Part shown: one piece after another, positions 3,877 through 22,423 of the stretch
Layout: the number at the start of each line of letters is the position of its first letter
Numbering within the stretch: position 1 is the first letter of the stretch
Position numbers and translations under genes: made by a program
Notes under the pieces: generated by a model
The model's input: the letters and a program-made list of their open reading frames with translations, nothing else
Database searches by the model: none
What the model was told of the DNA's origin: nothing
NCBI GenBank assembly: GCA_035559815.1
Contig: DATMAT010000070.1
Span: 1 to 41,648 of the forward strand
DNA: 41,648 nucleotides
Origin: Thermodesulfobacteriota bacterium
GTDB lineage: Bacteria > Desulfobacterota_D > UBA1144 > Nemesobacterales > CSP1-2
Direction: 5' to 3'

Positions 3877-5421
3877 ATGAGCGGTAATTACATCAAGATA
3901 TTTGATACTACTTTGAGAGACGGGGAGCAGGCGCCCGGATGCGGCATGACTGCGGAAGAGAAGCTAAGGGTTGCCCATCAGCTCGAGAGATTGGGAGTTG
4001 ATATCATCGAGGCTGGTTTTCCGATCTCATCGGAGGGGGATTTTCGGTCGGTAAAACTCATTGCCGAAAAAATAAGGGGCTGTGAGATAGCCGGCCTATG
4101 CCGGGCTAATTTCGTGGATATAGATAGAGGCTGGGAGGCGATAAAGGGGGCCGAAAACCCCAGAATCCACACCTTCATCGCTACATCCGATATCCACCTA
4201 CAGCACAAACTAAAGAAAACGAGAGACGAAGTACTGGAAATCATAAGCGCCTCGGTGAAACACGCTAAGCACTATGTCGATAACGTCGAGTTTTCCTGTG
4301 AGGATGCCACTCGAACGGACATTGATTACCTTTGCCGGGCGGTGGATATAGCGATCAGGGCAGGCGCCACTACCATCAACATCCCGGATACGGTTGGATA
4401 CACGGTGCCGGAGGAGTTTGCCTACATAATCAGCACCTTGAAGGAAAGGGTCCCCGGCCTTGACAATGTCACCCTGAGCGTTCACTGCCACAACGATTTA
4501 GGATTGGCAGTGGCTAACTCGATTGCCGCCATCAGGGAAGGTGCCAGGCAGGTCGAGTGCACCATCAACGGCCTTGGAGAGAGGGCCGGAAATGCTTCTC
4601 TTGAAGAGATAGTCATGGCCCTAAAGGTAAGAAACGACCGCAATCCTTATAAAACCAGGATAGTGACGGAGCAGATATATCCTACCAGCAGGCTAGTATC
4701 TCAGGTAACCGGGGTAAATGTCCAGCCGAACAAGGCCATAGTGGGGGCGAATGCATTTGCACACGAAGCAGGGATTCATCAGGATGGGGTGCTGAAGGAG
4801 AGAATCACTTATGAGATTATGACTCCAGAAGAGGTGGGCATCCCCTCAAACAAAATAATCCTTGGAAAGCATTCCGGCCGTCACGCGTTCAGGAAAAGGC
4901 TCGAGGAGTTTGGCTATTTCTTGAACGATAAGGATTTCGAGACCGCTTTCAAGAAGTTCAAGGACCTCTCCGACAAGAAGAAATACGTATTCGACGAGGA
5001 CATAGAGGCTTTGATAAGCGATGAGTTTCTTCGCTCTTCAGACTTTTACAAGATCATTTCCGTAAACTTTTCCAGCGGCACGGATATGCGCCCTGTAGCC
5101 ACGGTAAAGATCTCCATCGACGGGCATGAAGTGACCGTATCCGAGTATGGCAGCGGCCCGGTGGACGCCGTTTATAAAGCTATATCTAAGGCAACCGGAA
5201 TGACCCCCAACCTTCAAAGCTACGTCGTGGCGGCGATTACCGGAGGTACGGATGCTCAGGGTGAGGTTACGGTAAGGGTAGAAGAGGACGGAATATTTTC
5301 TCAAGGGCAGGGTGCTAATACGGATGTGGTTGTAGCAAGCGCCAAGGCCTATGTGAATGCGCTTAATAAACTTCGCTGGCGAAAGGAACACCCAAGAAGG
5401 GCCACGACAACTGGAGTTTAG
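3877..5421 (+). CDS. leuA: 2-isopropylmalate synthase
   Basis: This enzyme condenses acetyl-CoA with 2-oxoisovalerate, the first committed step of leucine synthesis. The 514 residues match the usual bacterial length. The HMGL-type TIM barrel carries [12 protein letters not shown] (10-21), HCHND (203-207, metal ligands), GLGERAGNA (232-240), and HEAGIHQDG (296-304). The C-terminal LeuA dimer domain (about 385-500, [12 protein letters not shown] onward) is the allosteric leucine site. Related citramalate and homocitrate synthases share the fold, but length and the regulatory domain favour LeuA. The start is ATG 3877 with GGGAGG ten bases upstream; a three-codon ORF (ATG AAG TAG, 3868-3876) lies exactly between. 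No other leu gene is nearby. Confidence 0.92.
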
Positions 5422-5423
5422 AG

Positions 5424-5497
5424 TTAGGAGTTAAGAGTTTAGAGTGAAGAATTAAGTTCCTCATAAATTCTTAACTCTTCATTCATTATTCTTCACT
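5424..5497. repeat. A/T-rich imperfect inverted repeat
   Basis: The sequence after leuA contains repeated GAGTTAAGAG/GAGTGAAGAATTAAG units facing CTTAACTCTTCATTCATT and ATTCTTCACT, so the RNA could fold into a long imperfect hairpin. It may end leuA transcription. The units resemble the GAGTTAAGAATTAAG-type intergenic repeats found in many uncultivated bacteria. Confidence 0.4.
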
Positions 5498-8904: not shown

Positions 8905-10716
8905 ATGCCCACTATAAATACCAACGTATTGGTGCTAAACGACGAGGTCGTTGATGAAACCTTTTACGACCCGCTGACCGGGTTTCCTAATAAATCTATA
9001 TTTGCCGAACACTTAGGGTGTAGCATCGAGAGGAGAAGACAGCACGAAGATTATTTATTTGCGGTGCTTTACCTGGACCTGGACCAGTTCAAATCCCTGA
9101 GCGATAGACATGGAGAAAAGATCAGCGACCAGGTACTAGCCGAGATAGCCAGCCGGATTAAGCATTGTCTTCGCTCCGAGGACAAGGTGGCACGGGTAGG
9201 TCAAGATGAGTTTACGATTTTACTAGGTGATATCAAGGATTTCAGTGATGCGGCCCGTATCGCCGAACGAATCCAAAAATCGCTGGAGAATCCACTCAAG
9301 GTGGATGGTCATGATTATATGATAAGCGTAAGTATAGGTATTGCCATCAGCGAAAAGGGCCAGGACGACCCGGAGGACCTGATACAAAAAGCGGAAATAG
9401 CCAAGAATCGAGCCAAATCCCAGGGTAAGGCGCGGCAAGAGGTGTTTAACTCCAGGGTGCAAGCCGGTTCTAACGGACTCATAAGGCTGGAGAGTGCGCT
9501 CTGGCGGGCGCTGGAGTGTGAGGACTTTCGGGTTTATTATCAGCCTATACTCTCGCTAGAAACAGGAAGGATTATCGGAGCGGAAGCCCTGGTGCGTTGG
9601 CATCATTCGGAGAGAGGCCTCCTTTCCCCGTCGGATTTTATCTCCCTGGCCGAGGAGACCGGTTTAATAGTACCCATAAACGAGTGGGTATTGCGCACTG
9701 CCTGTATTCAAAGCAAGGAGTGGCAGCTCCCCGGTCGTCCGCCAGTGCAGGTTGCGGTCAATTTTACTGCGCGCCAGTTCCAACAGCCGGACCTGCCGGA
9801 ATTAATCAGAAAGGTGCTGAGAGAGACTGATACCCATCCCCAAGCCCTCGAGCTGGAAATAACCGAGAGCACTGCCGTAAAAAACATAAATAACAGCGTC
9901 AGGTTGCTGAAAGAACTAAGGTCCATGGGCTTGCAGATCTCCATAGATGATTTTGGTACCGGCTACTCTTCTATGAGCTACCTGAAGAGTTTCCCGGTCA
10001 ACACGTTAAAGATCGACCAGTCCTTCGTCAGGGACATAGGGCGCGGTGATAATGATGTAACCCTCATCAAAACCATCATTTCTATGGCCCACACGCTGAA
10101 GTTGAATGTCATAGCGGAGGGCGTGGAAACTGAAGATCAACTGGCGTTCCTGCTTTCTCATCATTGCGACCGGATTCAGGGATTTCTATTCAGCAAACCC
10201 GTACCGGCAGAGGAATTTACAAAATTAATCAAGAAGGGGCATAAACTTTCCCCGGAGATATTGAAGAGGGCAAAGGAAAGCTGGAGGAAGAAATTCCTGG
10301 GGGAGTTGCTCCTGGAGTCGGGTTTTATCGACTCGGAAAAGCTCAGCCGTGCTTTGAAAGAGAAAAGGGCATGCAACGAAAAATTGGGTCAAATCCTGAT
10401 GAGGTTTGGATATGTAAACGAGGATGTCCTGATAGAATTCCTGGCAAAACAGCGCGGTTTTGAGGGTGTGAACCTATTCAAGAAAGGAATAGACAAAAAA
10501 GTGGTTAATTTGATCCCCAGGGACGTAGCCGAAAAATACAAGGTCCTGCCGATTGGATTTAAAACAGAGGGAGGAATCAAGAAACTGGTCGTGGCCATGG
10601 CAAATCCTTCAGACCTGGGTGCTATCGACACGCTAGTATTCATAACCGGCCATGCCATAGAACCGGTTTTTGCCAGGGAGGAGCAATTTACATGGATCAT
10701 CAGATATTTCTATTAA
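8905..10716 (+). CDS. GGDEF(degenerate)-EAL-MshEN cyclic-di-GMP protein
   Basis: The 603-residue cytoplasmic protein has three parts. The GGDEF domain (about 18-180) has GQDEF at 99-103 instead of GGDEF, so cyclase activity is doubtful, but the inhibitory-site motif RSED (90-93) is kept at the right distance. The EAL domain (about 195-440) keeps EALVRW (227-232), NFTARQF, ELEITES, DDFGTGYSS (348-356), LKIDQSFV, AEGVETEDQ and QGFLFSKP, so it looks like an active cyclic-di-GMP phosphodiesterase. Residues about 464-600 are an MshEN (T2SSE_N) domain, with two tandem motifs, LGELLLESGFIDSEKL and LGQILMRFGYVNEDVL; MshEN domains bind cyclic-di-GMP and usually sit on pilus ATPases. No membrane segment is seen. 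It is followed 87 bases later by a second cyclic-di-GMP gene. Confidence 0.9.
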   Translation: MPTINTNVLVLNDEVVDETFYDPLTGFPNKSIFAEHLGCSIERRRQHEDYLFAVLYLDLDQFKSLSDRHGEKISDQVLAEIASRIKHCLRSEDKVARVGQDEFTILLGDIKDFSDAARIAERIQKSLENPLKVDGHDYMISVSIGIAISEKGQDDPEDLIQKAEIAKNRAKSQGKARQEVFNSRVQAGSNGLIRLESALWRALECEDFRVYYQPILSLETGRIIGAEALVRWHHSERGLLSPSDFISLAEETGLIVPINEWVLRTACIQSKEWQLPGRPPVQVAVNFTARQFQQPDLPELIRKVLRETDTHPQALELEITESTAVKNINNSVRLLKELRSMGLQISIDDFGTGYSSMSYLKSFPVNTLKIDQSFVRDIGRGDNDVTLIKTIISMAHTLKLNVIAEGVETEDQLAFLLSHHCDRIQGFLFSKPVPAEEFTKLIKKGHKLSPEILKRAKESWRKKFLGELLLESGFIDSEKLSRALKEKRACNEKLGQILMRFGYVNEDVLIEFLAKQRGFEGVNLFKKGIDKKVVNLIPRDVAEKYKVLPIGFKTEGGIKKLVVAMANPSDLGAIDTLVFITGHAIEPVFAREEQFTWIIRYFY

Positions 10717-10803
10717 GAGAATTTAAGTTGAGAATTCCCCGCGGTTTGTCCCATAAGAGGGCAAATATAACGATATCATCAAGGGATTACGAGAGAAGCG
10801 GTC

Positions 10804-12459
10804 ATGAATGAAACTGTTTTAGGCAAAAGGCAAGCAACGAGGCTCGATTTCCTGAGCGATTTTGTCGAATATGCGCTAAGAAACGGCTTCGAGGAAACGG
10901 TAAGGTACTTAGGGAATAACTCTAAGCATTTATTGTCCAATCCTTCGCTCGTGGTCTCTCTCGACGTAATTAAAAACGATTGCACGGTATTCGCCCATAG
11001 AAAGGTTAAAAAGGGCTATCTCACCTTTATCCTGGATAGCATCGGTGAAAGCGCTTTGAAATTGGGGAAAGACCTTAACCTTATCCTCAAGAACATTAGA
11101 ATCCTGCCACATGAGAATCTGGTAGGGGATGAAGGCCCCGACAAGCCGGACTTTAATTTTACATTGCCGGTACTGCATAATGAGAAACCAATCTTGTTCA
11201 TCAACTTTTCGAAATACGACCCTCTCTCTAATGAGGATAGCGATTTTTCTCATGTTCGTTTGATATCCAGCCTGCTCTCGTCCCTCTGGGAGCGTGAGGA
11301 AAAAGAAAGGGCGGAGAAGGAAAATATAGAAAGGCTTTCTCTCATAGACCCGCTCACCGGCGTCTTCAATCGCCGCGCCTTCTATCAGTTCTTATCCCAA
11401 GACATATCGGAAGGGCGGAGAAAAAATTCCCCGGTCAGCCTGGCGGTGTTTGATATAGACGAATTTAAGCACATTAATGATTCCTACGGTCATGCCTTTG
11501 GAGACATGATTCTGAAGCAGGTGACGTCTAAGTTTAGGGACCTGCTCAGGGAAGAGGATAAGATGTTTCGCTTGGGCGGGGATGAATTTGCCGTCATCAT
11601 AAAGGCGGATAAGAAAGAGACCCATTCGGCAATTCAGCGAATCCTGAAGGAGGTTTCGGATAGCCGTAGTCCTCGAATAACGCTAAGCGGGGGAATTACC
11701 GGGATAGAGCCCGACGAGAATATAAGCGTCGACGAAGCGGTAAGACAGGCCGATAAGGCCTTATATCTGTCCAAGGAAAGCGGAAAAAACCAGGTTCTGC
11801 TATACGAGGGTGGCGACCGGAAAAGTGAATATGACGACCTCTTCTACCGCATGGCCGATTCCAAGGTTATCGAGGATATCAAAATCAAACTAAAAGAATT
11901 TGCAGCGGAGCAAATTACCTCCTCTCATTTAATCACAAAGGACCCGTACATTTATAAACACTCCATGGCAGTATCAAAACATGCGGTGCAATTAGGGAAA
12001 AAACTCAAGCTGTCCGACAACCGGGTTAAGAGTCTAAGATTTGGAGCGATACTTTACGATATCGGTATGATAGCCATACCGGAAGGAATACTGAATAAAA
12101 ACTCGAAGCTTACGCCGGACGAATTTGAGATAATCAAATACCACCCGCTTATAGTGGCGAGATTGATTCAGCAGTTCCCTATTCTCCGGGACGTCCTTCC
12201 CGCCGTACTATATCATCACGAGTGGATTAACGGACATGGTTATCCCTTTGGGCTAGTGGGAGACTCCATACCTTTGGAAGCGAGGATCATCGCCGTAGTA
12301 GACGCATTCCATGCCATGCACAGCGACCGTCCCTATCGTCCCGTTCTTTCATTAGAAGAGTCTATCTCGGAAATTATTAAGGGCAGCGGAACAAAGTACG
12401 ACCCACAGGTAGTGGAGGCTTTCCTGTCCTTGATGACCGAAAGGAAGCTGCTGGCTTAA
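10804..12459 (+). CDS. GGDEF-HD-GYP(degenerate) cyclic-di-GMP protein
   Basis: The 551-residue protein starts with about 165 residues of probable GAF-like sensor fold, followed by a short coiled coil (WEREEKERAEKENIERLS). The GGDEF domain (about 178-335) is intact: DPLTGVFNRRAF, FDIDEFKHIND and GGDEF at 258-262, with an RxxD inhibitory site (249-252), so it should make cyclic-di-GMP. The HD-GYP domain (about 355-550) keeps GHGYP (477-481) but has Y418-D419 where HD is expected, and Met instead of Lys in HDIGK. A related YN-GYP protein is known in Pseudomonas (PA2572), which is inactive as a phosphodiesterase. The protein is the mirror image of its upstream neighbour, with which it is probably cotranscribed. 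Confidence 0.88.
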   Translation: MNETVLGKRQATRLDFLSDFVEYALRNGFEETVRYLGNNSKHLLSNPSLVVSLDVIKNDCTVFAHRKVKKGYLTFILDSIGESALKLGKDLNLILKNIRILPHENLVGDEGPDKPDFNFTLPVLHNEKPILFINFSKYDPLSNEDSDFSHVRLISSLLSSLWEREEKERAEKENIERLSLIDPLTGVFNRRAFYQFLSQDISEGRRKNSPVSLAVFDIDEFKHINDSYGHAFGDMILKQVTSKFRDLLREEDKMFRLGGDEFAVIIKADKKETHSAIQRILKEVSDSRSPRITLSGGITGIEPDENISVDEAVRQADKALYLSKESGKNQVLLYEGGDRKSEYDDLFYRMADSKVIEDIKIKLKEFAAEQITSSHLITKDPYIYKHSMAVSKHAVQLGKKLKLSDNRVKSLRFGAILYDIGMIAIPEGILNKNSKLTPDEFEIIKYHPLIVARLIQQFPILRDVLPAVLYHHEWINGHGYPFGLVGDSIPLEARIIAVVDAFHAMHSDRPYRPVLSLEESISEIIKGSGTKYDPQVVEAFLSLMTERKLLA

Positions 12460-12480: not shown

Positions 12481-12524
12481 AAATCCCCTCTTGAGAGGGG
12501 TGGCTCGAAGAGCCGGGGTGTGTC
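12481..12524. repeat. AAATCCCCTCT...GGGGTGTGT repeat, left of the DUF559 remnant
   Basis: CCCCTCTTGAGAGGGG forms a hairpin, followed by a second small hairpin GGCTCGAAGAGCC and GGGGTGTGT. The same sequence pattern recurs at 12769-12811, and its reverse begins at 12726. Confidence 0.65.
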
Positions 12525-12725: not shown

Positions 12726-12811
12726 GACACACCCCTAAATTCCCCTCTGGAGAGGGGACTTGAAAGAAAAATCCCCTCTACAGAGGGGTGACTCGGAGAG
12801 TCGGGGTGTGT
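12726..12811. repeat. Repeat cluster right of the DUF559 remnant
   Basis: ACACACCCCTAAATTCCCC opens the element in inverted orientation, and CCCCTCTACAGAGGGGTG with GACTCGGAGAGTCGGGGTGTGT closes it in the same orientation as 12481-12524. The remaining bases to 12891 show nothing recognisable. Confidence 0.65.
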
Positions 12812-14935: not shown

Positions 14936-15691
14936 ATGATATCTAAAAAACTAAAAGCCACAATCGAGTTCCTTACGGTTATAAAAATTGGAAAATCCAA
15001 TGAAAGATTAGAAAGAGACGATATTGCAAACTCGATTATGTTCTTCCCTTTGGTGGGGGTTTTATTGGGTGGGGTTTGCGCCCTAGTCGAGTTTCTTCTG
15101 AGGGATTTTGTTGTCTCTAGCTTGATCCGCTCGCTGTTTGCCGTCATAGTCCTGGCGGTATTTACCCGCGGGCTTCACCTGGACGGCGTCGCCGACTGCT
15201 TCGATGCTCTTCACTTTGCCGGACGGGACAGGGAAAAAGCGCTTGAGGTGATGAAAGGAAAGACGATCGGTGCATTCGGCGCATCGGCCTTGGTCATAGT
15301 GATTGTGGGAAAGATTGTGGCCTTATATGCTCTTCCCGATGAATTTAGAAGTAAAAGCCTTATACTCATTCCGGCTCTGGCCAGGTGGACTTCCTCGATC
15401 GTGGCAAGAGAACGCGCACCGGCCTCGGCCAAGGGACTTGGATATGTTTTCAGCGTTTACTCGACCGGGAAAGCGTTTTTAATAAGCGGACTGACCGCCC
15501 TGGTAATTTCTTTTCTGCTCTTCGGATTTAAGGGATTTGCTATTTTTATCGTGGTTTCGATTTTCAGCTTTCTACTCGTGCGGTATTTCATTCGTGCATT
15601 CGGCGGGGTAACCGGCGATGTCTTTGGCGCGATAATCGAACTTTCGGAGGTATTCGGGTTTGTGGTAGTAGGAGTCGTAATCGGGTCATAA
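14936..15691 (+). CDS. cobS: Adenosylcobinamide-GDP ribazoletransferase
   Basis: CobS joins adenosylcobinamide-GDP to alpha-ribazole (phosphate), the last step of cobamide assembly, in the inner membrane. The 251 residues carry six or so hydrophobic segments and the family signatures RGLHLDGVADCFDAL (about 80-94) and GGVTGDVFGAIIELSE (near the C-terminus). The usual second aspartate pattern HLDGLADTADG is varied to VADCFDAL but the Asp residues are kept. It starts the run cobS-cbiR-cobU. No ribosome binding site is obvious before ATG 14936. Confidence 0.92.
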   Translation: MISKKLKATIEFLTVIKIGKSNERLERDDIANSIMFFPLVGVLLGGVCALVEFLLRDFVVSSLIRSLFAVIVLAVFTRGLHLDGVADCFDALHFAGRDREKALEVMKGKTIGAFGASALVIVIVGKIVALYALPDEFRSKSLILIPALARWTSSIVARERAPASAKGLGYVFSVYSTGKAFLISGLTALVISFLLFGFKGFAIFIVVSIFSFLLVRYFIRAFGGVTGDVFGAIIELSEVFGFVVVGVVIGS

Positions 15692-15793
15692 TTCAGCCGC
15701 AAAATTGGGATAAATTAACATGAGCGAGATATATGATGCAGGAGGCAAGATGCAGGATGATTCAAAAAATAGATCATCTATCATGGATTATTT

Positions 15794-15829
15794 TATTCGT
15801 GTGAATCTGTGTTCATTCGTGGCTAAACA
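15794..15829 (+). repeat. ATTCGTGGCTAA repeat, copy 1
   Basis: TATTCGTGTGAATCTGTG followed by TTCATTCGTGGCTAAACA. Related copies occur at 17192-17226 and 32141-32176, each shortly before a gene boundary. Confidence 0.65.
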
Positions 15830-15835
15830 ATATTC

Positions 15836-16603
15836 ATGATGAAAATAGGCACTACTTCATACATATACCCTGATGAAATAATTCCTAATGTCAGGAAACT
15901 GGTAAATCTTGTTGACGACGTCGAGCTTGTTCTTTTTGAAGGGAAGGACTACTCTAATCTTCCAAGCGCGGAAGACATAAATACCTTGAAGAAGCTCTCT
16001 GGCCAATCGGGAATTACCTACACGGTCCATCTTCCCATAGACTTGGATATATGCTCTAAAGACGGTGATTTTAGAAACTTTTCCCTGAATCGAATGGCGG
16101 ACATAATGAAGCTGACCGCTCCTTTGAATCCGACCGGCTATATTGTTCATCTCCCCAGGAGGGAAGTGGAATCCGAGGAGATGTGGGTTTTGAGAACGGT
16201 GAGGTCTCTTTCCGAGCTCTTTATCCAGTTTGGAAATAGAGACATCTGTATAGAGAATTTGAGTTATCCAATCAAACACATACTTCCGATAGTGGAGGAA
16301 TTTGAGTTCAAGCTTTGTCTAGACATAAGCCATGCCCTCAAATGCTCGGATGATTGGGAGGAAATTCTTGATAACAACTTCAACACTATAAGGATGATTC
16401 ATTTCTATGGCCCGGAGATAGACGGGGATGGACACACCGGGATTCAGAGAGCGGAGAGGGGCTTTGTAAGGTCGGTCGTCAATAAAATCCTTTCTTCAAA
16501 TTTCGACGGCTTACTTACGCTTGAGGTTTTTGGAGTAGAGGATTTTTTTGAGTCGAAGAGAATTCTCGATGAGGAGATTTTGTCTTGGGAAAAAAGATTC
16601 TGA
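15836..16603 (+). CDS. cbiR: Cobamide-remodelling phosphodiesterase (CbiR-like TIM barrel)
   Basis: The 255-residue protein is a xylose isomerase-like/AP endonuclease 2 TIM barrel: MKIGTTSYIYPDE at strand 1, TVHLPIDLD, YIVHLPRR, ICIENLSYP, LCLDISHAL, RMIHFYGP and LLTLEVFG, with the His/Glu/Asp residues that line a metal site. Placed between cobS and cobU, it matches CbiR, described from Akkermansia muciniphila, which hydrolyses the nucleotide loop of cobamides so that a preferred lower ligand can be installed. Assignment rests on fold plus context. ATG is doubled (15836 and 15839). The gene overlaps cobU by 19 bases, supporting coupled translation. Confidence 0.78.
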   Translation: MMKIGTTSYIYPDEIIPNVRKLVNLVDDVELVLFEGKDYSNLPSAEDINTLKKLSGQSGITYTVHLPIDLDICSKDGDFRNFSLNRMADIMKLTAPLNPTGYIVHLPRREVESEEMWVLRTVRSLSELFIQFGNRDICIENLSYPIKHILPIVEEFEFKLCLDISHALKCSDDWEEILDNNFNTIRMIHFYGPEIDGDGHTGIQRAERGFVRSVVNKILSSNFDGLLTLEVFGVEDFFESKRILDEEILSWEKRF

Positions 16604-17097
16604 TCACGGGCGGGATAAAGAGCGGGAAGAGCCGGGTTGCCCTTAAACTTGCCAGAGAGACGGGAAATGGAGAGAAAATCTTCATCGCCACGGCGCGCCC
16701 GATTGATGAGGGTATGGAGAAAAAGATAGAAAAGCACAAAGAAGAACGGGGGAGTGATTTTAGGACGATAGAAGCTCCAATTCATCTCGGAAATGCCCTC
16801 AGTGAAGTAAGACATTCAACAGCGGTCATAGATTGCCTTACCCTCTGGCTCTCTAATCTCTTCTTTGAATTAAAGGAAGAGGAAAAATTACGAGAGACGG
16901 ATAGTTTTATCGAGGCATTGAATAACTTCGACGGTAAGGCAATAGTTGTAACTAACGAAGTAGGCTGGGGGATTATTCCTGCGGATGAGATCTCAAGGCG
17001 CTATCAATCAGAACTGGGAAGCCTGAATCAAGCGGTAGCGAAAATATGCGATGAAGTGTATTTGTTGATTTCGGGCCTACCACTCAGAGTCAAGTAG
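16585..17097 (+). CDS. cobU: Adenosylcobinamide kinase / cobinamide-phosphate guanylyltransferase
   Basis: CobU phosphorylates adenosylcobinamide and then transfers GMP to give adenosylcobinamide-GDP, the substrate of CobS. The 170 residues begin with a P-loop GGIKSGKS (9-16), followed by IATARPIDEGME and KHKEERG, whose His corresponds to the guanylylated histidine, and CLTLWLSNL plus VTNEVGWGI. The typical C-terminus GLPLRVK is present. The start is TTG 16585, inside the end of cbiR, preceded by GAGGAG (16571-16576) with 8-base spacing; no ATG fits the P-loop. Confidence 0.92.
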   Translation: MGKKILITGGIKSGKSRVALKLARETGNGEKIFIATARPIDEGMEKKIEKHKEERGSDFRTIEAPIHLGNALSEVRHSTAVIDCLTLWLSNLFFELKEEEKLRETDSFIEALNNFDGKAIVVTNEVGWGIIPADEISRRYQSELGSLNQAVAKICDEVYLLISGLPLRVK

Positions 17098-17132
17098 AGT
17101 TAAGCCACTAATTAAAACGAATCAACTCTACT
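17093..17132 (+). terminator. Inverted repeat after cobU
   Basis: AGTAGAGTT (17093-17101) and AACTCTACT (17124-17132) are perfect 9-bp inverted arms with a 22-base loop, beginning within the cobU stop codon. It could end the cobS-cbiR-cobU transcript, though no T run follows. The GTAGAG/CTCTAC ends recall the palindrome family at 36029. Confidence 0.4.
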
Positions 17133-17191
17133 AAAAAGCGGGATGCAAGTAAAAATTTCTCCAATCCTACATCGTGCATCTTACATCTTAT

Positions 17192-17226
17192 TATTCGTGC
17201 AAATATGTGTTTATTCGTGGCTAAAT
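17192..17226 (+). repeat. ATTCGTGGCTAA repeat, copy 2
   Basis: TATTCGTGCAAATATGTG followed by TTTATTCGTGGCTAAAT, adjacent to the cobT stop codon. It matches the copies at 15794 and 32141. Confidence 0.65.
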
Positions 17227-17227
17227 A

Positions 17228-18289
17228 TTATTTGGGTTTGTTTCTCGATACCCCTGCCTCCTCAAACGTAGCCATTTCGTTATAGGCCTTTACCCCGGCT
17301 TCGATTATGAACATTCCGAGCACGGCGCCGGTGCCTTCTCCGAGGCGCATGTTGAGGTCGAGTATGGGTTCTACCCCGAGCTTTTGTAGTATGAGGCCGT
17401 GCCCCCCCTCGGCGCTTTTATGGGAGAAGAAAATATAATTTTTTACTTCAGGGCAAAGGGTAATGGCCACGGTAGCACCTGCAGTTGCTACAAACCCGTC
17501 AACCACAACCGGGACTCTCTTTGAAGCTCCGCCGAGGATTACCCCAGCAATTCCGCCGATTTCAAACCCTCCCACCTTGGCCAAAATATCGACTGGGAAA
17601 TCAGGGTCGGAGTTGTATAATGCCAGCGCCTTTTTTACTACCTCTACTTTGTGTTTCCAGGTTTCATCGTTTATGCCCGTGCCGTATCCTACTACTTCTT
17701 CTGGGTCGAGCCCGGTTAAAGCGCAGATGACCGCCGCAGATGGGGTTGTATTTCCTATCCCCATATCTCCGGCGGCGAGAAAATTGTATTTTTTCTCGAC
17801 GGCATCAATGACCAGCCCTATTCCCAATTCAATAGACATTATTGCTTCGCCCATCGTCATTGCCGGCTCCCTGGCCAGGTTTCTTGTACCGTTGTTTATC
17901 TTCCTGGTTATCAGGCCGTCTGTTTTCTCGAAGTACCAATCCACTCCCATATCTACCACAAAGACGTCCACCCCGGCGTGCCTGGCCAGAGCGTTTATAC
18001 CGGCGCCTCCGCTAAGAAAGTTATATACCATCTCCTTTGTTACTTTTCTGGGATAGGCTGAGACTCCTTCCTCTGCCACTCCGTGGTCGCAGGCCAGGAC
18101 GAATACTGCTTTTTTATCCAAGCTCGGTTTTGTGTCCTCGGTAATAGCGACGACACGCTTTGCAAACTCCTCCAGTGCTCCCAGGCTTCCTTTTGGCTTG
18201 GTGAGGTTATCCAGGCGTGCGGAAGCATGGGCGATGTATCGGGGATCAAGCGGTTTAATCGATTCCATAACCCGGTGAAGTAAGCTCAT
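17228..18289 (-). CDS. cobT: Nicotinate-nucleotide--dimethylbenzimidazole phosphoribosyltransferase
   Basis: CobT makes alpha-ribazole phosphate from nicotinate mononucleotide and a lower-ligand base, the other substrate branch for CobS. The 353 residues match the family length. The signatures are GSLGALEEFA (about 34-43), ACDHGVAEEGVSAYP, AAGDMGIGNTTPSAA and the catalytic Glu of LGEGTGA (about E318). It lies on the opposite strand to cobS-cbiR-cobU and converges on cobU. It starts one base after the queE stop codon, with AGGAG in the end of queE as ribosome binding site, so it is cotranscribed with queE. Confidence 0.94.
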   Translation of the reverse strand: MSLLHRVMESIKPLDPRYIAHASARLDNLTKPKGSLGALEEFAKRVVAITEDTKPSLDKKAVFVLACDHGVAEEGVSAYPRKVTKEMVYNFLSGGAGINALARHAGVDVFVVDMGVDWYFEKTDGLITRKINNGTRNLAREPAMTMGEAIMSIELGIGLVIDAVEKKYNFLAAGDMGIGNTTPSAAVICALTGLDPEEVVGYGTGINDETWKHKVEVVKKALALYNSDPDFPVDILAKVGGFEIGGIAGVILGGASKRVPVVVDGFVATAGATVAITLCPEVKNYIFFSHKSAEGGHGLILQKLGVEPILDLNMRLGEGTGAVLGMFIIEAGVKAYNEMATFEEAGVSRNKPK

Positions 18290-19991: not shown

Positions 19992-22256
19992 TCAATTAAT
20001 AAGGGGTTTCTTGTCCATTACCGGGGGCTTATCTTCTTTCTCGCTGTTTTTGGAGACCGTATCGTAAAAGTCTCCCAGCTTGTTTTCCAACTCGTCTACG
20101 TATCTGATTACGTCCTGAATCTGCCGGTCTAACTCCTCGGCCTCGAGGTTTATCTCCTCGCATCTTTTCCACTCTATAATATGTCCTTTTATGTGCTCGA
20201 AAGCCTCATGCATGGATTTCATATCGTCCGCTATGCGGGACACACTGACAGCAATTTCCTTTTTCTCTCTCTCCTGCTTTATTAAGCTCGTCCACAGAAT
20301 AGCCGCGATAAACGCCAGAAGCAGTATCCCCTGGGGTATGGTTGTCTCTAGCGTGGGGTAAATTCCAAGAAGGTCTATCTGTGGGATAAAATCAAGCGGG
20401 GTTATCCCCACCAGGCCTGCCTCCTGAAATTCCCTTATGCCCTTGCCCATTAGCACGAAAGAAAGAAAATAAAGGAAAAAGCTGGTTATGCTGAAAAAGT
20501 ATTTTAGGGGGATGCGGAGACCGAGTTTAAAGATCACCACCACCAGACCCAGGAGCAAAACCAGACCGGCAATAAACCCCCATATTACTGCACCTTGGGA
20601 GTTCTCGGCCTGCAGCCATAGCGCTTGATAAAACAGCACTGTCTCGAAAGCCTCTCTATACACGGCGAAAAAGGAGACGCTGGCCAGTGCAAAAACGTTC
20701 TTCTTGGTGAGAGCCTTCTTTACCTTGCCCTGGATATACTCCTTCCATTTTTTGACCTCGATCTTGGTGATGAGCCAGTAACTAACGTAAAAAAGCACCA
20801 CTGCGGCAATTAGGGATGTTACACCCTCGATGATCTCCCTTTGTGCCCCGCTTATGGATATGACCGTCTGGGCCAGGACCCAGGTGATGAGGCCGGCGAC
20901 GATTGCCAGTATCCACCCGAGGTGAACGTATTTGATGGCACTTCCGGCGCCGGTTGCGGTAAGGAAGGCTATCACCGCAGCTACTATCAAGACCGCCTCC
21001 AAACCCTCGCGCACGATGATGGAGAATGAATTTACGAACGAAAAGGCCTTACCGATGGGCTTTCCGTTTTCGAGAATAAGAGCGGCCCGGTTAAGGTTGT
21101 TATTTATTTCTCCATAAATCGCTTTTACTTCTTCGGATTCGCTTTCAGCCTTAATTGCTCCCCTTAGTTCGGTAAATTTTGCTTCGATTTCGCTGGTGAG
21201 CTTGCTATCCTTAAGCGCCAGCTTTGATTCCACTCTCTCGAACCCTTCTAGGTAAGCGTCGAGCGCTTTTGTGTATGCATCTTTGCTTTTTCCTTCATCG
21301 TAGAGCGCCTCTGACTCTCTTAGTAAATTGGTAGTTACTGCTAATGGATTCTCTCTTTCGATTTCGGTTTCAATCGTTCCTCGTCTCAGGAAAGCTACGA
21401 CCTTTGATATATCGTTATCTTCTAAATAAGGGCTTATTTGGTTCATTATTTCCTGATTGGATAGTGTAGCAAGGTCTTTTAAGTTATTTATATCCCCTGG
21501 CACATCAGTTGCCCTTAGTATTTTTTTTCCTTCCTCGCTTGCGTTCTGGTCGAAGCTGAGCGAAAGCACGTAGAAAGCTATGTTCCACTTTTCGTCCTCT
21601 GATAATTTCGGGAATGAGGGCATAGCCGTTCCCTCTATGCCAAAGCTCATGGTGTTATACACCTTGAATGGAGAAAGCCCTCCGGTAGTACCGCCGTCGG
21701 TAAAGTTTGTGGGAGGAGGGGTAAGGTTAGAGGCCATAGGTCCATTTCCTGCGCCTAAAACTCCATGGCACTGGGCACAGTTCCCCTCGTATAAATCCTT
21801 TCCTACCTGGAATGACGGATGACTCTTGGGATAGGTTATTATCCCGTAGGCGGATATAAGGCTAGCTTTTATTTCTTTGGAGATAGATTCAACCTCGTTG
21901 ACCGAGGACTTGTTCTCAATCTTTCGCCTAAGCTCGACCAGGTTCGATTCAATCCCCGCTTTATCCCCGCCAGAGGACTTTAGGTCTCCGAAAAGATTGA
22001 GGGCCTCGGAGGAGAAATCGAGCATCTCGGCGTATTCTTCCTCACTGGTGGTGATTCCGTCCCGGACAGCGTTCTTGTAGTCTCCGCCAATGTAGTCCAC
22101 AAGAGAGAGTATTCTTTTTGCTTCTTCCGATGCGTGAGAAGGGATGCCAGGGAGAATAAGGAGAAGAATCGTCGTCAGTATACTCAGGAGGACAAGGGAG
22201 CGAGTACTGTCGTGTCGGCGAGGCCTGGTTAATAAGCTATTAAAACATACATGCAT
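19992..22256 (-). CDS. Cytochrome c-FTR1 family iron permease
   Basis: From ATG 22256 the protein has 754 residues. After a signal peptide (LLSILTTILLLILPGIPSHA) comes a helical region, then a cytochrome c domain with CAQCH (160-164) and the axial-Met segment GTAMPSFPKLSEDE. A second helical stretch follows, then a seven-helix FTR1/EfeU permease with two iron motifs, REGLE (416-420) and REAFE (534-538), and a C-terminal coiled coil. FTR1 permeases take up ferric iron after ferrous oxidation; a fused periplasmic cytochrome c is a plausible electron acceptor, which is inference. The frame is open to 22382, but those codons lack the look of a signal peptide start; ATG 22337 is an alternative. 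No EfeO or EfeB gene is adjacent. Confidence 0.85.
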   Translation of the reverse strand: MHVCFNSLLTRPRRHDSTRSLVLLSILTTILLLILPGIPSHASEEAKRILSLVDYIGGDYKNAVRDGITTSEEEYAEMLDFSSEALNLFGDLKSSGGDKAGIESNLVELRRKIENKSSVNEVESISKEIKASLISAYGIITYPKSHPSFQVGKDLYEGNCAQCHGVLGAGNGPMASNLTPPPTNFTDGGTTGGLSPFKVYNTMSFGIEGTAMPSFPKLSEDEKWNIAFYVLSLSFDQNASEEGKKILRATDVPGDINNLKDLATLSNQEIMNQISPYLEDNDISKVVAFLRRGTIETEIERENPLAVTTNLLRESEALYDEGKSKDAYTKALDAYLEGFERVESKLALKDSKLTSEIEAKFTELRGAIKAESESEEVKAIYGEINNNLNRAALILENGKPIGKAFSFVNSFSIIVREGLEAVLIVAAVIAFLTATGAGSAIKYVHLGWILAIVAGLITWVLAQTVISISGAQREIIEGVTSLIAAVVLFYVSYWLITKIEVKKWKEYIQGKVKKALTKKNVFALASVSFFAVYREAFETVLFYQALWLQAENSQGAVIWGFIAGLVLLLGLVVVIFKLGLRIPLKYFFSITSFFLYFLSFVLMGKGIREFQEAGLVGITPLDFIPQIDLLGIYPTLETTIPQGILLLAFIAAILWTSLIKQEREKKEIAVSVSRIADDMKSMHEAFEHIKGHIIEWKRCEEINLEAEELDRQIQDVIRYVDELENKLGDFYDTVSKNSEKEDKPPVMDKKPLIN

Positions 22257-22423
22257 CTTATTTCGGCAGTGTTCCTGAAAGCAAAAGGGAAATTGAAATT
22301 TATTTTCAATAATGAATAGTTTTTTGAAGGTTACCATGAGTATACGGGGTGTCAAGGAATGTTGCCTATGCTGGTAAATCAATTTGCCATGATTTCGGTG
22401 GCGCTGTAAAATCTTTCCAAATT

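Follow-up and report, generated by a model that had tools for sequence, protein, structure and literature searches.

Two adjacent genes in the window (the whole 41,648-nucleotide stretch that was analysed) encode P1 and P2, which we propose to be an opposing cyclic-di-GMP (c-di-GMP) phosphodiesterase and cyclase made as one transcription unit, with their non-catalytic domains acting as regulatory modules. We put the probability of this reading at roughly 0.6. The Pfam matches of the domains, with E values from 1e-74 to 1e-15, exclude chance similarity, and the catalytic assignments drawn from residue comparison are well supported (Table 1). The preliminary description had put forward a phosphodiesterase and a cyclase that both contain a second, degenerate domain, and our residue-by-residue comparison fits that proposal. 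The same description had assigned one degenerate motif to each protein; the degeneration itself holds, but its extent was understated, as P1 has three further changes in its GTP site and P2 also lacks K225 and D308. The domain content, the catalytic residues kept or lost, the losses conserved in the P2 family and the lack of a conserved gene pair can be read directly from the sequences compared.

Table 1. Features of the P1 and P2 genes, in window positions.
Feature	Position	Strand	Details
P1 gene	8905..10716	+	603 aa; pseudo-GGDEF, EAL, MshEN
P1 GGDEF domain	8962..9432	+	GQDEF 9199-9213; RSED inhibitory-type site 9172-9183
P1 EAL domain	9496..10200	+	checked catalytic residues all kept
P1 MshEN domain	10294..10713	+	overlooked in the preliminary description
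P1 MshEN motif I	10294-10365	+	residues 464-487; R to F, Q to K
P1 MshEN motif II	10381-10452	+	residues 493-516; K and Q present
P1 MshEN_C	10468-10713	+	
P1-P2 intergenic gap	10717..10803	+	87 bases
P2 gene	10804..12459	+	551 aa; N-terminal domain, GGDEF, pseudo-HD-GYP
P2 N-terminal domain	10804..11313	+	~170 aa; GAF-like features only
P2 GGDEF domain	11341..11793	+	intact; GGDEF 11575-11589, REED 11548-11559
P2 pseudo-HD-GYP domain	11932..12411	+	YD 12055-12060; M for catalytic K 12067-12069; HHE from 12214
P2 pseudo-HD-GYP, further motifs	12238-12246; 12328-12339	+	GYP; RPYR

P1 has no N-terminal sensor domain. Its GGDEF (E = 8.5e-42) and EAL (E = 1.2e-74) domains were compared with PA0575 (5m3c, solved with GTP) and with the C25 protein, a GGDEF-EAL protein that carries the only other EAL domain in the genome. 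All ten active-site residues checked in the EAL domain are kept, including the Glu of the EAL motif, an Asn, a Glu, the Asp-Asp pair, a Lys, a Glu and a Gln. The GGDEF domain, by comparison, is substituted at four positions around the GTP site that both reference proteins keep: N to S, GH to GE and GD to SD, which fall in the FKxxND/GHxxGD stretch, and GG to GQ in the signature itself (GQDEF, residues 99–103, with RSED five residues upstream). It therefore departs from the residues of a diguanylate cyclase, and the prediction that this domain makes no c-di-GMP is well supported. Because the EAL residues are kept and the GTP site is changed, P1 is expected to hydrolyse rather than to make c-di-GMP and is probably a phosphodiesterase acting through its EAL domain. 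The preliminary description had likewise read P1 as a GQDEF protein, probably no cyclase, with a fully conserved EAL site, and the open reading frame and motifs lie where it had placed them; the inhibitory RxxD sites that it had noted in both proteins are also present (RSED in P1, REED in P2). The four GTP-site changes make GTP sensing by the P1 GGDEF domain less sure than that description implied. A pseudo-GGDEF domain next to an EAL domain also occurs in FimX, and PdeA-type GGDEF-EAL enzymes with a degenerate GGDEF domain are activated by GTP. Compared with these proteins, P1 has a full EAL site, an additional C-terminal MshEN domain and a GTP site changed at four positions.

The C-terminal tail of P1 matches two MshEN models above their cut-offs, PF05157 (E = 1.2e-15, residues 522–603) and NF053729 (E = 4.1e-16, residues 465–516), and aligns over its full length with the N-terminal domains of PilB and PilF; two independent models and these structures support its identity. 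MshEN is a type of c-di-GMP receptor; in MshE it consists of a pair of 24-residue motifs separated by 5 residues, as described in the MshEN survey (PMC5013675). The P1 tail has the same 24+5+24 layout followed by MshEN_C, as do the MshEN/GSPII domains of MshE, PilB and PilF, and retains all key Leu and Gly residues. It differs from those domains in standing at the C terminus of a phosphodiesterase and in having lost both ligand residues of half-site I. The corresponding R and Q positions are among those that the survey describes as mattering in MshE (PMC5013675), and changes at their equivalents contributed to loss of binding in PilF GSPII-A (PMC12002112). Because these residues are replaced in P1, the tail may not bind c-di-GMP, and we regard such binding as doubtful. 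The MshEN fusions named in the survey's main text involve REC, HD-GYP, CheA, CheX, cyclase and kinase domains (PMC5013675); a fusion to a phosphodiesterase would add a combination absent from that main text.

The closest relatives of the P1 tail are stand-alone proteins of ~150–200 aa with 46–55% identity (three in this genome, one in G005 and two in G001). In the alignment, motif I of these relatives has Q in all six and R in four of six, and two of them carry a two-residue insert just before the Q. The three proteins of this genome (L131:7323-7928, L131:9906-10370 and L132:5664-6137) are likely to be free-standing c-di-GMP receptors. The L131 genes lie ~2 kb apart, and the L132 gene adjoins a PilZ gene (5112-5459).

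P2 keeps an intact GGDEF domain (E = 1.1e-39; GGDEF at residues 258–262), with the REED site upstream and with the metal Asp and the GTP-site Asn and Asp in place; it is probably a diguanylate cyclase acting through this domain. The N-terminal ~170 aa have no Pfam match; GAF is matched weakly in the P2 paralog, and strands and helices follow a GAF-like order in an AlphaFold model of low confidence. The model as a whole has a mean pLDDT of 68 and a pTM of 0.38, good for the GGDEF domain, moderate for the HD-GYP domain and poor for the N-terminal domain. As previously described, the HD-GYP domain (HD_5, E = 4.2e-39) reads YD in place of HD (Y418-D419) and keeps GYP (residues 479–481) beside an intact GGDEF domain. 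The HD pair, the catalytic Lys (HDxGK) and Asp308 that characterize HD-GYP phosphodiesterases are replaced in P2 by Y-D, M and H; in PmGH numbering, the losses comprise H221 to Y, K225 to M, D308 to H, R192 to A and E185 to Y, and the domain keeps H189, D222, H250, H276, H277 and D305 together with GYP. Its loop, HHEWINGHGYP, agrees with HHExxDGxGYP except for the change of D to N. Any one of the changes H221A, K225A and D308A renders PmGH inactive (PMC4159591), and it is well supported by these comparisons that the P2 domain would hydrolyse no c-di-GMP.

H221, D222, K225, D308 and R192 are all present in four further HD-GYP proteins of this genome, which rules out a lineage-wide oddity and indicates that the loss of HD and K is specific to the P2 family. 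Among 58 phylum genomes, this family is represented four times: by the window copy, by C23 in the same genome (53% identity), by a protein in G005 (57%), a genome deposited as a groundwater Deltaproteobacteria MAG, and by one in G007 (42%). The HD and K positions read Y-D and M in three of them and Q-D and V in the fourth, so that H221 and K225 are missing throughout; this rules out an error of sequencing as well as a single, recent mutation in the HD motif, and the loss is ancient. Metal ligands decay within the family, the G007 member having further lost D305, Y285 and R314, while HHE is intact and the GYP loop is kept in all four members (as GFP in G007).

A close counterpart to the P2 pseudo-HD-GYP domain is DvhD of Desulfovibrio vulgaris (9RBZ, 9RC0), a demonstrated non-catalytic HD-GYP receptor of c-di-GMP with no metal in its crystal (PMC13090378). 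It too has lost the HD motif, and its c-di-GMP contacts are largely common to both proteins: P2 has seven of the eight residues named at the two c-di-GMP sites of DvhD (K520, Y523, P567, M646, R650, Y652 and R653, with R569 replaced by G). The Y523 equivalent is present in P2 and not in the active-type HD-GYP proteins of the genome, whereas some of the other DvhD-type contacts are also kept in active HD-GYP domains. A structure search with the P2 model returned DvhD among many GGDEF matches. The proteins differ in that DvhD, a dCache-PAS receptor of the membrane, has no cyclase and has lost the double His, whereas P2 has an intact GGDEF domain, keeps HH and has no dCache-PAS. PA2572 of Pseudomonas aeruginosa (YN-GYP), reported to be enzymatically inactive (PMC3749722), resembles P2 in having Tyr for the His of HD, but its YNIGK has the Lys without the Asp, whereas P2 has YDIGM. 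A Gastranaerophilales GGDEF/HD-GYP protein (L022:4302-6203) also has YDIG for HDIG and is without the first His, which may reflect a similar loss that arose independently.

Several DvhD-type contacts are lost in the P2 relatives near mutL, including the Tyr kept in the window copy, and for this reason c-di-GMP binding may not be the function of the whole family. In all three relatives the gene immediately upstream encodes an exported repeat protein, and the window copy has neither this neighbour nor mutL. The exported proteins (L128:7266-8864, L129:4989-6623 and L130:4348-5706) have ~450–545 aa with repeats around ‘ITLxN’ and no significant Pfam match; they and the mutL-side cyclase relatives always form a conserved pair.

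The P1 and P2 genes lie on the same strand, and no terminator-like or promoter-like site is predicted on the + strand of the 87-base gap between them, so they probably form one transcription unit. A comparable arrangement is dosC-dosP (dgcO-pdeO) of E. coli, adjacent co-transcribed genes for a cyclase and a GGDEF-EAL phosphodiesterase with opposed activities (PMC8846402). Oxygen sensing by the Dos proteins relies on haem domains, whereas P1 and P2 have none and carry MshEN and pseudo-HD-GYP domains instead. The synteny of the pair, which the preliminary description had proposed to check, is not conserved: the 58 phylum genomes hold no second instance of the pair and no ortholog of the fused P1 architecture. 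This architecture is also absent from 50 mixed bacterial genomes, in which none of ~150 EAL matches continues into an MshEN tail in open frame; the lone match covering the tail is interrupted by six stops and was assembled from separate pieces. A search of 17 genomes from another phylum returned no match and carries no weight either way. With the P2 relatives at mutL beside the exported protein and no fused P1 in the other genomes compared, a conserved operon is ruled out, and the adjacency is peculiar to one genome among those compared.

From sequence, we infer the activities, co-transcription, ligand binding and feedback of the two proteins as follows. P1 would hydrolyse c-di-GMP through its EAL domain and P2 would make it through its GGDEF domain, both being produced from one transcript with opposed activities. 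The pseudo-HD-GYP domain of P2 would most probably bind c-di-GMP much as DvhD does and, along with the REED inhibitory site, exert feedback on c-di-GMP synthesis; a long helix that joins it to the GGDEF domain in the model (residues 337–370, where confidence is low) could carry the signal. The half-degenerate MshEN and pseudo-GGDEF domains of P1 would modulate or locate the phosphodiesterase. We also infer that the pseudo-domains act as nucleotide sensors, a role that is more plausible for the P2 HD-GYP domain, in which the DvhD contact residues are kept, than for the P1 GGDEF domain with its four GTP-site changes.

The genomic isolation of the pair raises the possibility, which we consider unlikely though worth serious weight, that P1 and P2 are neighbours by chance and belong to separate pathways, P2 being a relocated mutL-side paralog and P1 a lineage-specific fusion. 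The settings of the mutL-side relatives (this genome, G005 and G007), none with an EAL gene beside it, favour such a history, as do the lack of a P1 ortholog and the dispersed repeats just downstream of P2; the common strand, the short gap without signals and the matched opposite activities argue against it. The repeat is a 28-base element, GAGGGGTGxCTCGxAGAGxCGGGGTGTG, with a hairpin core, and two copies follow P2 at 12495-12522 and 12783-12810; the genome holds 11 copies at ≤2 mismatches, and a reversed control gave 0. It is improbable that the degenerate domains of both proteins are decaying remnants without function. The continuing losses in G007 and the broken half-site of the P1 MshEN domain would suit decay, but the HD-GYP domains of the P2 family (42–73% identical) are about as conserved as the active GGDEF domains (53–67%), and their HHE and G-Y/F-P loop are intact.

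Other readings accept that the degenerate domains are functional and assign them different roles. That the P2 pseudo-HD-GYP domain is a protein-interaction module, whose GYP loop docks a GGDEF domain, as has been reported of Xanthomonas RpfG, and which would bind no nucleotide, seems to us rather unlikely. GYP-dependent HD-GYP/GGDEF interaction has been reported (PMC3749722), and retention of the loop across the family despite decay of the metal ligands is consistent with docking, but the window copy keeps the canonical-site residues of DvhD, among them the Tyr missing from the mutL-side copies. We also doubt strongly that P1 is mainly a localised regulator whose MshEN domain docks on a type IV pilus or secretion machinery, so that the EAL domain acts only locally. 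The full-length match of its tail to PilB/GspE-type N-terminal domains, and several MshEN-bearing ATPase-like proteins in the genome, point in that direction; against it, the stand-alone proteins are closer to the tail than are the MshEN-bearing ATPases of this genome and the family (34–37% identity), and the window shows no pilus gene close to P1. A bolder form of the phosphodiesterase–cyclase reading, in which P2 is a self-monitoring cyclase with a metal-free, DvhD-like HD-GYP product receptor and P1 is gated by MshEN, is quite unlikely. If true, synthesis and breakdown in one c-di-GMP circuit would each respond to the same signal, but by way of a different type of receptor domain.

Each element has precedents: opposing gene pairs are known from dosCP, catalytically dead GGDEF domains as sensors, dead HD-GYP domains as receptors, and MshEN as a receptor domain. 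Their combination is new. Networks of c-di-GMP signalling are rich in enzymes with a dead partner domain, the role of which is rarely known, and the P2 family, in which HD-GYP catalysis is lost and the binding loop is kept in a protein with an active-type cyclase, offers a testable case of an enzyme turned receptor. Elsewhere in the window, positions 14936-18289 hold the cobamide salvage genes cobS, cbiR and a DBI phosphoribosyltransferase, and positions 19992-22382 encode a single protein with FTR1 iron permease and cytochrome c domains.
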